This document shows positions 8,628 through 12,814 of a DNA stretch of 64,000 nt, one piece after another. The notes below the pieces were generated by a model. The model searched no databases. It worked only from the letters and a program-made list of their open reading frames with translations, and was not told the origin of the DNA. Made by a program: the position numbers and the translations under genes. Every line of letters begins with the position of its first letter. Positions within the stretch are counted from its first letter, which is position 1. This stretch comes from Leptotrichia buccalis C-1013-b. GTDB lineage: Bacteria; Fusobacteriota; Fusobacteriia; Fusobacteriales; Leptotrichiaceae. The stretch covers positions 1,984,001 to 2,048,000 of the forward strand of contig NC_013192.1 in NCBI RefSeq assembly GCF_000023905.1. The letters run 5' to 3'.

Positions 8628-9572
8628 CTAATTTACTATGTAATTTGTTTCTTCATTATTTTCCACAAAATCATTTCTCATCAAATCAATTGACAATTTA
8701 TTAAGTGCTTTTTCCTTTAAAATATTCACATTATGACTTGCGATATTTAAGGATTTGGCAATTTCCTTTTCTGTGTAAACTCTGTCATCAAGCCCATAAG
8801 CCATTACTAAAATTTGTTCATCCAGATAATTCAGTTTTTTTGGAATATTTTCCAGAATGTACATTTGTGTTATTTTATCAGCTTTTTCCAATATCTGTGT
8901 ATTTTCAATTAATTCTTCAGGATTAATATCATCAAATAATTTTTCCAGCTGTTCAATGTATTCTGTTGAAACATTCATTTGCTTGCTGATTTCATCCATT
9001 GAAAAGCCCATACTCTTATCAACTTTTACTTTTAAATATAAAATATACGATAATTCAGACGATTTAATGTCCTTTAGCAGTTCTTTCTGAAATTCCAAAA
9101 TATACTTTACAGCAAAATTTTTCACAAAAAATTCAGGTTCTTTAGTAATTCGACTAATTTCATCAAAATAACTTATTCCTGAAATAATTCCAAGCGTAGC
9201 TTCCTGAACTGTATCCAAAAACGAGAAACCATATTTTGAATAAAGCAGACTTTCCTTTACAGCTATTTTCAAGTATCTATCAATTAATTCTTCATTTTCA
9301 TTTCTATTTTTTTTCTCAAGTTCCTTGTATTTTTCCCTTATGTCTTCCAAATACGATTTTATTGTATCTTTTTCTTCAATAAATATATTTTCATCTTCTA
9401 AAACTATAAAATCACTTCCATCTGTAGAAGTCCTAACTTCTGGAATATTTTCCAAATAAACAAATTTCAGAAATTCAAAAAATTCATCATCACTTAAGCT
9501 ATAATTTTCAATTATCTTTTCAAAACTGAAATTTCCCTTTTTCTTAATATCTTCAAAAATATTTTCTAACAT
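8628..9572 (-). CDS. Degenerate sigma-70-like protein (RpoD paralogue)
   Basis: A 314-residue protein whose layout mirrors the RpoD encoded just upstream. Residues 1-48 resemble region 1.1; residues 96-136 (ELIDRYLKIAVKESLL..., FLDTVQEATLGIISGISYF) match regions 2.1-2.2, the core-binding helix; residues 173-218 resemble region 3; residues 240-297 (LDEQILVMAYGLDD then a helix-turn-helix) match region 4. The segment that in RpoD reads [13 protein letters not shown], which melts and reads the -10 element, is here FFVKNFAVKYILEFQ without the aromatic cluster. It may bind core polymerase or act as a specialised or regulatory sigma; this is inference. AAGGGGAT precedes the ATG. Confidence 0.75.
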   Translation of the reverse strand: MLENIFEDIKKKGNFSFEKIIENYSLSDDEFFEFLKFVYLENIPEVRTSTDGSDFIVLEDENIFIEEKDTIKSYLEDIREKYKELEKKNRNENEELIDRYLKIAVKESLLYSKYGFSFLDTVQEATLGIISGISYFDEISRITKEPEFFVKNFAVKYILEFQKELLKDIKSSELSYILYLKVKVDKSMGFSMDEISKQMNVSTEYIEQLEKLFDDINPEELIENTQILEKADKITQMYILENIPKKLNYLDEQILVMAYGLDDRVYTEKEIAKSLNIASHNVNILKEKALNKLSIDLMRNDFVENNEETNYIVN

Positions 9573-9696: not shown

Positions 9697-9726
9697 TCTA
9701 AAAGGAGCTAAAAAACTTTAGCTCCT
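9697..9726 (-). terminator. Hairpin overlapping the rpoD stop codon
   Basis: Minus-strand AGGAGCTAAA (9726-9717) pairs perfectly with TTTAGCTCCT (9712-9703), 10 bp with a 4-nt loop, followed by TTTAGAT. The stem contains the rpoD stop codon. The short T tract makes it a possible partial terminator between rpoD and the sigma-like gene. Confidence 0.6.
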
Positions 9727-10896
9727 GTAATCTTCCAATTTTTTTCTTCTGCTTGGATGTCTTAATTTTCTTAACGCTTTAACCTCAATCTGTCTGATAC
9801 GTTCTCTTGTCACATTAAAAATTTTTCCTACTTCTTCCAAAGTTTTTTGTGAGCCATCATCCAGTCCATATCTATATCTGAGTACCATCTCCTCACGCTC
9901 ATTCAATGTTTTTAATACTTCATCAAGCTGTTCTTTTAACAAAATCCTTGTTGTCGCGTCATAAGGATTTGCAAATTTGTCATCTTCAACAAAATCTCCC
10001 AGCTCACTGTCTTCTTCACTTCCAACTGGTGTTTCTAAAGAAATTGGATCCTGATTCATTTCAAGAATACTTTTTACCTTTTCTACTGGTAATTCCAGTT
10101 TTTCAGCCAACTCTTCCGCTGTCGGCTCTTTTCCAGTTTCCTGTAAAATAATTCGGCTTTCTTTTTTGATTTTGTTAATCGTTTCAATCATATGAACAGG
10201 TATTCTTATAGTTCTTCCCTGATCGGCAATCGCACGTGTTATCGCCTGTCTAATCCACCAAGTCGCATATGTGGAAAATTTAAATCCTTTTTCATATTCA
10301 AATTTTTCTACAGCTTTCATAAGCCCCATATTTCCCTCTTGAATTAAATCCAGCATTTTTAATCCACGATTTGTATGTTTTTTAGCAATACTTACAACAA
10401 GTCTTAAGTTTGATTCGATTAATTTTTGTTTTGCTTCTTCTTCACCGTCTAACACTCTTTGAGCATAATCAATTTCTTCTTCATAGCTAAGTAATGGAAT
10501 TTGTCCAATTTCACGTAAATACATTTTTATTGGCTCGTCTACATCCATACTTTCTGCCATTTTCAATAGATCCGTCTGCAATAATTTATCCACTTCCGAA
10601 TCGTCGATTTCACTTTCCACAAATTCGTCATGAGTATCTTCAAAATCTGATATTTCCATTTTCTCAATGTCCGCTAAAGTTTCGGGAACTTTTAACAAGT
10701 CCTCTTTTTCTTTTTTAGTATCTACAATTTGAACACCGTCATCAGTCAGTTTTTTTATTAACTGTTCAATTTTTTCAGTTGAAAATCCAATAGATAAAAC
10801 AGAATTTATTTCTTCGTAACTTACAACTTTTTGTTCTCGTGCCTGTTTTATAAAATTTGCCAGACTATTTTTTAAATTTTGTTTTTTATCAGACAT
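9718..10896 (-). CDS. rpoD: RNA polymerase primary sigma factor RpoD
   Basis: The housekeeping sigma factor that directs core polymerase to -35/-10 promoters. The 392 residues show region 1.1 (1-60), the [12 protein letters not shown]-type region 1.2 ([16 protein letters not shown]), regions 2.1-2.4 ([29 protein letters not shown]), region 3 and the region 4 helix-turn-helix ([20 protein letters not shown]). An acidic stretch (about 75-115) separates 1.1 from 1.2. The ATG overlaps the end of dnaG by 8 bp, showing translational coupling in the classic dnaG-rpoD operon. AAGGAGAT is the ribosome binding site. Confidence 0.97.
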
Positions 10897-12712
10897 AACC
10901 CAATCTCCTTATTAATATAAATTCATCGTATAATTTTTCAATTTCGTCAATTTTACTAATATTTTTTAATTTTAACAATATTTTTTTCAATTCAAGTTTT
11001 TTTATTTTATCATTCTCTTCATCACTTTTTTGTCTTTCTTCGTCTATTTCCCTTTTAATCCATCCAAAATAAATTTCCCTAAAATAAATATCCTTATCTT
11101 TAATATCTTTGTCTGCAGAAAACTGCAGTCCCATAATTATTTCCGATTCTTCTTTAGTAATATCTATTTTATCCAGCTTCCTTATATCGAAATTTATTGT
11201 TTTCATATCTTCTACTAACTTATTAAATATTGAAGAGCTAAACTTTTTATTTAATAATTTTTCACACTTTTGCTTTTCAGAATCATAACATTTTAAAAAA
11301 TATATAAATGTCTGTTTTTCCAGCTCAATATACAAATCTTCCTTTAGCTTTTTAAACTTGACTGTATTCTCGTCACTTGAAATTCTTGGTTTTTTTGGAG
11401 ATTTTTCTGGTGTTAAATTTCCTAATTCTTCTTTTAGAATAAATCCATCAATTCCAAATTCTGTTGATAATTTTTGTAAATAAAGATTTTTTCTAAGATT
11501 ATCTGTAACATTTGAAAAAAAAGGCTTAAATTTTCTGATAAATTTAGTTACATTGTCTACATCTTTCAAATCCATTTCCTTTGAAAATTCCAAAATTAAA
11601 AAATCAAATATTTCCTTTGACTCTTTTACAACTTCTATAAATGCTTTTTTCCCATTTTTTCGTAAAAATTCATCAGGATCCTTTTCTTCACCTTTTAGGA
11701 CAAGACATTTTATATCAAAATCATATTTTTTTAGAATGTAGCCAGCTTTTATTACGGCATTTCTCCCAGCTTCATCATTATCATAAGCAATCAAAATTTT
11801 ATCTGTATATTTTTTCAGAAGTTGTGCCTGTTCTTCAGTAAAGGCTGTTCCAAGGCTTGCTACCGCATTTTCAAATCCATTTTTTTGTGCCGTCAGTACA
11901 TCTAGATAACCTTCCATCAGTATAGCAAAACCTTTTTTCTTGACATTCCCTCCTTGATACTTTATTCCAAAAAGTTCTCTTCCCTTTTTGAAAATAGGTG
12001 AATCTGGAGAATTAAGGTATTTTGGCAAATTAGAATTTTTCTCAATTATCCGTCCCCCAAATGCCACTATTTTACCTTCAATATTGTAAATTGGAAAAAT
12101 TATTCTGTTTCTAAAACTGTCATAAATTTCTCCATTTTCATTTCTTTTAGCAAGTCCCAGCTTCATTATCTTATTTTCTGAAAAATTTTTTTCTATTAGA
12201 TATTGAAATAATCCATCTCGTATACTAGAAGCAAATCCAATTTTGAATTTTTTCATATCTTCTAGCGAAAAATCCCGATTTTTCATATACTCTAATGCTT
12301 CTTCATATTTTTCCACATTATTTTCAAAAAAAGTCTGTGCTTCATTCATTATTTCAAAATATTCTTTGTTTTCGGCTTGTTTCTCGCTTATTTTCTGACT
12401 AACTATTTGAGACTTTCCACTTTTCTTTAATGGAATATTGTATTTCTGTGATAATTCCTCTACCGCCTGAACAAAGCCAATGTCATTAATTTTCATATAA
12501 AATGAAATTACATTTCCGCCAATTTGTGTACTAAAGTCTTTAAAAATATTTTTTACTGGACTGACTGTAAAGGATGGAGTTTTTTCATCTTTAAAAGGAG
12601 ATAAGCCTTTATAATCTGAACCTGCTTTCTTTAAATTTACATATTCGCCGATTACTTCGACAATATCCAAATTATCAATTAATTTTTGTATCTCTTCTTC
12701 ACTATAAAACAT
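10889..12712 (-). CDS. dnaG: DNA primase DnaG
   Basis: DnaG makes the RNA primers for replication. The chosen start is the ATG at 12712 ([12 protein letters not shown]), with GGAGG at 12723-12727; a GTG nine codons further up lacks a site. About 607 residues: an N-terminal zinc-binding-type domain ([26 protein letters not shown]), where the usual Cys/His ligands look changed or absent ([10 protein letters not shown] rather than GxxYxGxCPFHxEKTPS), then the TOPRIM domain ([22 protein letters not shown]) and a C-terminal helicase-interaction region. It sits in gmk-rpoZ-dnaG-rpoD order and overlaps rpoD by 8 bp. The missing zinc ligands are worth noting. Confidence 0.95.
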
Positions 12713-12814
12713 ATTTTTTATTCCTCCATCAAAAAACACAGTTCCATAAAAAATACTTACACTATTAGTATAATTTATTTTTCTAAATAGTCAATACTTT
12801 GTACATAAATTTTT

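Follow-up and report, generated by a model that had tools for sequence, protein, structure and literature searches.

The X locus in Leptotrichia

What does a sigma factor relative do when the segment that reads and opens the −10 element has been altered? This question is raised by a gene of Leptotrichia buccalis C-1013-b, here called X, which lies in the 64,000-nt stretch of DNA that we analysed (the window) and which a first-pass annotation had described as a degenerate sigma-70 paralogue placed directly after rpoD. X is a real ORF with an ATG start (8628..9572, minus strand) that begins 145 nt past rpoD, encodes a sigma-70-derived protein of 314 aa and has orthologues; a homologue about 88% identical is present on a Leptotrichia hongkongensis contig. 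No paper on gene X was found in the literature searched, which covered few subscription papers.

We observed that the gene order in the window is dnaG–rpoD–X–nif3, with all genes on the minus strand. The dnaG primase gene (10889..12739) and rpoD, which encodes a complete primary sigma factor (9718..10896), precede X, and nif3 (DUF34/NIF3, TIGR00486; 7792..8604), its constant downstream neighbour, follows after a gap of 23 nt. A 10-bp hairpin lies across the rpoD stop codon (9703..9726, minus strand) and might act as a weak terminator separating rpoD from X, so the tie of X to the dnaG–rpoD transcript may be loose. This hairpin fell below the criterion of the terminator scan, having too few T residues, and the promoter scan returned sites no commoner than in shuffled sequences.

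We also searched the genome of the window (G000) with Sigma70_r2. The sole other gene obtained encodes an intact sigma factor of 273 aa, 42% identical to RpoD (1351270-1351926; L032, L112). Two short ORFs having region 4 only, of 116 and 96 aa (L113, L115), are present elsewhere in this genome.

The relationship of X to sigma-70 was seen in several comparisons. Pfam Sigma70_r4 matched X over its cut-off (E=9.3e-9), and Sigma70_r2 gave a sub-threshold match to residues 96-139 (E=0.15). The local alignment of X with the neighbouring RpoD scored 135, versus 56±9 (maximum 100) for 1000 shuffles. Regions 2, 3 and 4 are present in sigma order. The region 2.1-2.2 equivalent (residues 95-137; 9162..9290, minus strand) is plainly retained, with GFSFLDTVQEATLG aligned to a 14-residue RpoD counterpart; it contains the core-binding motif LDTVQEATLG, in which the codons of Q123-E124 (9201..9206, minus strand) correspond to Q406-E407 of sigma70, the core-binding pair. 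In the region 2.3-2.4 equivalent (residues 138-170; 9063..9161, minus strand) the promoter melting and −10 residues are replaced, a 16-residue RpoD stretch having become RITKEPEFFVKNFAVKYI. The region 3 equivalent, a helix-turn-helix (residues 171-214; 8931..9062, minus strand), was recognised from the alignment and from a fragment model, and region 4 (residues 241-295; 8688..8852, minus strand) retains its family match with changed −35 contacts. On these alignments, X is a descendant of sigma-70.

The N-terminal part (residues 1-64; 9381..9572, minus strand) is region 1.1-like by profile alone. It gave no Pfam hit for region 1.1; it aligns with the complete homologues described below, whose own N-terminus aligns with region 1.1 of SigA, and region 1.1 is thus supported only indirectly in X. 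Among the regions said to be kept in the initial description, 2.1-2.2 and 4 are borne out and region 1.1 is indirect, while region 3, which had not been listed, is also there. The AlphaFold models were of low confidence, both for the whole protein with a four-sequence alignment (pLDDT 47) and for a fragment covering regions 1.2-3 (pLDDT 62), within which most of the region 3 equivalent reached pLDDT 74-87. Searches with this fragment model by Foldseek and VIA-align gave weak matches only, sigma chains appearing amid unrelated ones.

Neighbours of X across the Fusobacteriota

A search of the phylum gave matches at E≤0.001 in 81 of 98 genomes, some of them to other sigma factors. For the remaining genomes, the gene upstream of nif3 was fetched using nif3 as the anchor. 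X was recovered in 89 of the 98 Fusobacteriota genomes (89 genes, 89 genomes). It lies directly before nif3, abutting or overlapping it, in 87 of these 89 loci; the two genes overlap in 64 loci, and the overlap is exactly 4 nt in 41. The rpoD gene is found upstream within 400 nt in 66 of the 89. The constant neighbour of X is therefore nif3 more than rpoD. An argument from operon position accordingly leads to nif3 more than to rpoD. The natural loss or disruption of X in a few genomes weakens the general role that had been proposed from this position.

Several loci depart from the common arrangement. In two of them (L117 and L118, in G052 and G051, respectively), nif3 is cleanly gone and X is kept beside rpoD; X is there followed by the gene for a secreted TPM-like protein, which at other loci comes after nif3. 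PF01784 had no match in the rest of either genome. G065 also has X and lacks nif3. In L101 (G016) and L015 (G075), nif3 is split by a frameshift or contains stops, and the adjacent X is intact. Conversely, X is absent from L044 (G018), where nif3 begins 65 nt after rpoD. In one Leptotrichia genome (G077, L019), the TnpB-like ORF of an IS605-type element interrupts X, of which residues 53-314 are still in frame downstream of the insertion, and X is frameshifted in G057. In reduced-genome Leptotrichiaceae (g2, g7 and g10; L094, L095, L099, L100 and L103), X is without the core-binding motif, and the gene before it is one of ~150 aa, not rpoD; the ORF of X is still there.

As X is absent or disrupted in some genomes, it is not essential in every strain. 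The separate losses indicate that X and nif3 are not obligate partners, and the idea that X works only with NIF3 is weakened by them. X might still be a working partner of NIF3 in a protein–protein pair, with the sigma fold as a mere scaffold, and the close and often overlapping placement of the two genes would suit such a pair. Against it, X persists without nif3 (G051, G052, G065) or with a broken nif3 (G016), nif3 persists without X (G018), and the association of NIF3 with sigma-70 and dnaG (primase) genes is broad and general (PMC8469502). We consider this partnership quite unlikely.

Origin of X and the residues kept and lost

We found a complete sigma-70 having a region 2.3-2.4 of the FSTYATWWI type at the X locus in 11 genomes, which belong to the genera g18-21 and g24 (family f2) and to families f3 and f4. 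Four of the 11 proteins were analysed with Pfam; each had regions 2 and 4 over the cut-offs, and three of them region 3 as well. The Leptotrichiaceae X matched the profile of the complete X with E=1.3e-24 over 275 columns that took in the N-terminus, and matched the RpoD profile more weakly (E=5.9e-10); the Fusobacterium-type X matched the complete X at 9e-39. As complete orthologues exist in other genera and families, the loss of promoter-reading residues is derived and does not characterise the family. Orthologues with an intact region 2.3-2.4 had been named in the first-pass annotation as refuting its reading, and at the level of the family this objection applies.

In a tree with RpoD and the E. 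coli sigma factors, X formed a single clade (99/97) apart from RpoD. When X was forced together with fusobacterial RpoD, the AU test gave p=0.016 for all X and p=0.079 for the complete X alone. A recent duplication of rpoD is disfavoured by the separate clade and by the first of these values, the second being less decisive. Judged from these trees, X seems to represent an old sigma lineage of its own and apparently did not arise by a recent copying of the rpoD next to it; its exact origin is uncertain owing to long branches.

Eroded forms are seen in f1, in some of f2 and in f6, a family placed outside the order; the complete forms occur in f2, f3 and f4. Judged from these ranks, and if the complete form is ancestral, there were at least three separate losses; the RpoD and NIF3 trees need 2 and 3 changes, respectively. 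The parts lost differ by lineage: the Fusobacterium-type X is without region 3 and the −35 reader and often keeps an aromatic-Trp pair, whereas in the Leptotrichia X regions 3 and 4 remain and the −10 reader is changed.

Next, we counted residues in a MAFFT alignment of 78 eroded X homologues, Leptotrichia included. The pair Q406-E/D407 is retained in 73 of the 78, and D/E403 as well as D/E407 taken alone in all 78. With clades weighted equally, the Q and the E rank second and third in conservation among 254 columns, beside the region 4.1 glycine. Two polar residues thus exceed the bulk of the hydrophobic core in conservation, which suggests that an interface has been preserved. In sigma-70, mutations at the Q406 and E407 positions weaken core binding. 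A free pairwise alignment with RpoD placed a Q on Q406 in 74 of the 78 sequences, and the HMM of the complete form found the core-binding motif in every X sequence that it matched; as judged from these comparisons, the motif match is independent of any one alignment. In the window, X has the region 2.2 motif (D403, Q406, E407) as LDTVQE, and its D, Q and E are invariant in 16 Leptotrichiaceae X.

The promoter-facing surfaces presented a different picture. W433 is found in none of the 78 eroded sequences, and their −35 contact residues are mostly changed. The window X lacks the region 2.3-2.4 melting and −10 set (Y425, F427, T429, Y430, W433, W434, Q437), and the −11 pocket (Y425, F427, T429, Y430) is replaced in either alignment. 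The Trp-Trp dyad has become Phe-Phe in the profile alignment or Asn-Phe by MAFFT, and the equation of W434 with F153, made by MAFFT alone, is alignment-dependent. Some aromatic residues persist among the eroded X as FF, FW or YW. The earlier statement that the aromatic cluster is replaced thus holds for the −11 pocket, with certain aromatic residues left in place. In region 4 of the window X, none of the four residues R584, E585, R588 and Q589 is kept despite the Pfam match. The net charge of the DNA-facing segments drops from about +4 to +6 in RpoD and the complete X to between −3.5 and +2.7 among the eroded groups.

For ECF sigma factors, no Trp dyad is needed to melt DNA, so the loss of W433 is no proof that melting is lost. 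This leaves room for the main rival explanation, a still working alternative sigma factor; such a factor would use unusual promoters through a remodelled −10 reader (FF or FW for WW) and a changed region 4. Regions 2, 3 and 4 in sigma order in the Leptotrichia X, an aromatic pair kept by the profile alignment, the resemblance of the complete relatives to working sigmas and a region 4 with 26 of 55 positions invariant (16 Leptotrichiaceae sequences) are all consistent with it. The replaced −11 pocket and the lower DNA-facing charge argue against it, and the Fusobacterium-type X is wholly without region 3 and the −35 reader. We judge this explanation to be rather unlikely.

We then compared eight Leptotrichia genomes for selection on the gene. 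For the whole of X, dN was 0.051 and dS 0.91, giving a dN/dS of ~0.06, by which a pseudogene is ruled out for the Leptotrichia X. By part, dN was lowest in region 4 (0.022), followed by region 2.1-2.2 (0.031), the most constrained part besides region 4, and it was 0.065 in the altered −10 segment; the values for RpoD and NIF3 were 0.013 and 0.068, respectively. Some positions of the altered −10 segment are invariant across the Leptotrichiaceae family, which suggests that the segment was probably re-purposed and not abandoned. X could alternatively be a decaying gene that has no function of its own and is heading to loss, as the progressive erosion over the phylum, the split gene in G077, the frameshift in G057 and the absence from G018 might indicate. 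The frame is open in 89 genomes, and purifying selection with the invariant positions of the altered segment largely refutes decay for Leptotrichia; we regard it as most improbable.

Possible function of X and comparison with known systems

In Leptotrichia and in most of the other lineages, the core-gripping residues are kept and many promoter-reading and promoter-opening residues are lost, which makes X probably a regulator of the polymerase and not an initiator. We infer, with about an even chance of being right, that X is a sigma factor turned into a regulator that binds core RNA polymerase and no longer opens normal promoters. Occupation of core without normal promoter opening was also among the first proposals for X, and of these it fits best with the retention of core residues and the erosion of promoter surfaces in many lineages. 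The ancestor of the Fusobacteriota would have encoded a complete alternative sigma-70 beside nif3, and X would have shifted from an initiating sigma to a core-docking protein in Leptotrichia and, independently, in further lineages. Region 2.2 may dock on the β′ clamp helices and region 4 perhaps on the β flap; a normal −35 element would no longer be read and a normal −10 element no longer opened. X would then occupy or shape the sigma site, modulating the use of core by RpoD or by the second sigma factor, and most likely would not direct transcription at promoters of its own. The broader proposal, that a phylum-wide sigma family switched at least three times independently to such an RNA polymerase regulatory subunit beside nif3, is plausible, with the balance tilting slightly against it. 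The loss of the core-binding motif in g2, g7 and g10, where the ORF remains, counts against core docking, and the conservation of the Q and the E could serve another partner.

Another reading takes X for a sigma decoy, which would bind an anti-sigma or another sigma-binding protein and so free the real sigma, as in the PhyR-NepR pair. PhyR likewise has a sigma-like domain in which the promoter contacts have degenerated (PMC8103513), and a kept sigma-binding surface could look alike in both cases. However, the core-binding regions of PhyR are described as degenerate too, whereas the core-binding pair of X is kept; X is also without a receiver domain, and no anti-sigma gene was recognised at the locus. 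We find a decoy unlikely.

The reading of X now rests on a family series and not on one sequence. Because a single locus within a single phylum carries a series from complete to eroded sigma factors, the passage of an initiator into something different can be followed in the sequences. If X indeed binds core and does not open promoters, the Fusobacteriota of the mouth and gut, including tumour-associated Fusobacterium, would hold an undescribed polymerase regulator, and there would be a lead on why nif3, the function of which is unsettled, accompanies transcription genes.

Among known systems, the group 1-3 sigma-70 factors (RpoD, RpoS, SigB/SigF/SigG, RpoH) share with X the order of regions 1.2, 2, 3 and 4 and the region 2.2 core-binding motif, and complete X proteins score over the Pfam cut-offs for regions 2 and 4 and, in most cases, for region 3. 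The window X differs from them in lacking the −11 pocket and the Trp dyad and in its altered −35 contacts, and X stands outside RpoD as a separate clade. PhyR, the alphaproteobacterial anti-anti-sigma factor, is alike in having a sigma-derived domain that no longer initiates, as may be the case for X. However, PhyR is ECF-type and has a receiver domain and a degenerate core-binding surface; X keeps this surface and gave no Pfam hit for a receiver domain. SigO-RsoA of Bacillus subtilis resembles X as an unusual sigma in which promoter-reading and core-binding parts are rearranged; there sigma-2 and sigma-4 reside on separate proteins that jointly initiate, whereas X has both in one 314-aa ORF. 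Finally, in Firmicutes the gene for TrmK lies between rpoD and nif3. According to the DUF34 survey, this tRNA methylase is a common operon partner of nif3 in the same nif3-rpoD-dnaG set (PMC8469502). TrmK is unrelated to X, and in the Fusobacteriota it is the sigma-derived X that takes the place between rpoD and nif3.
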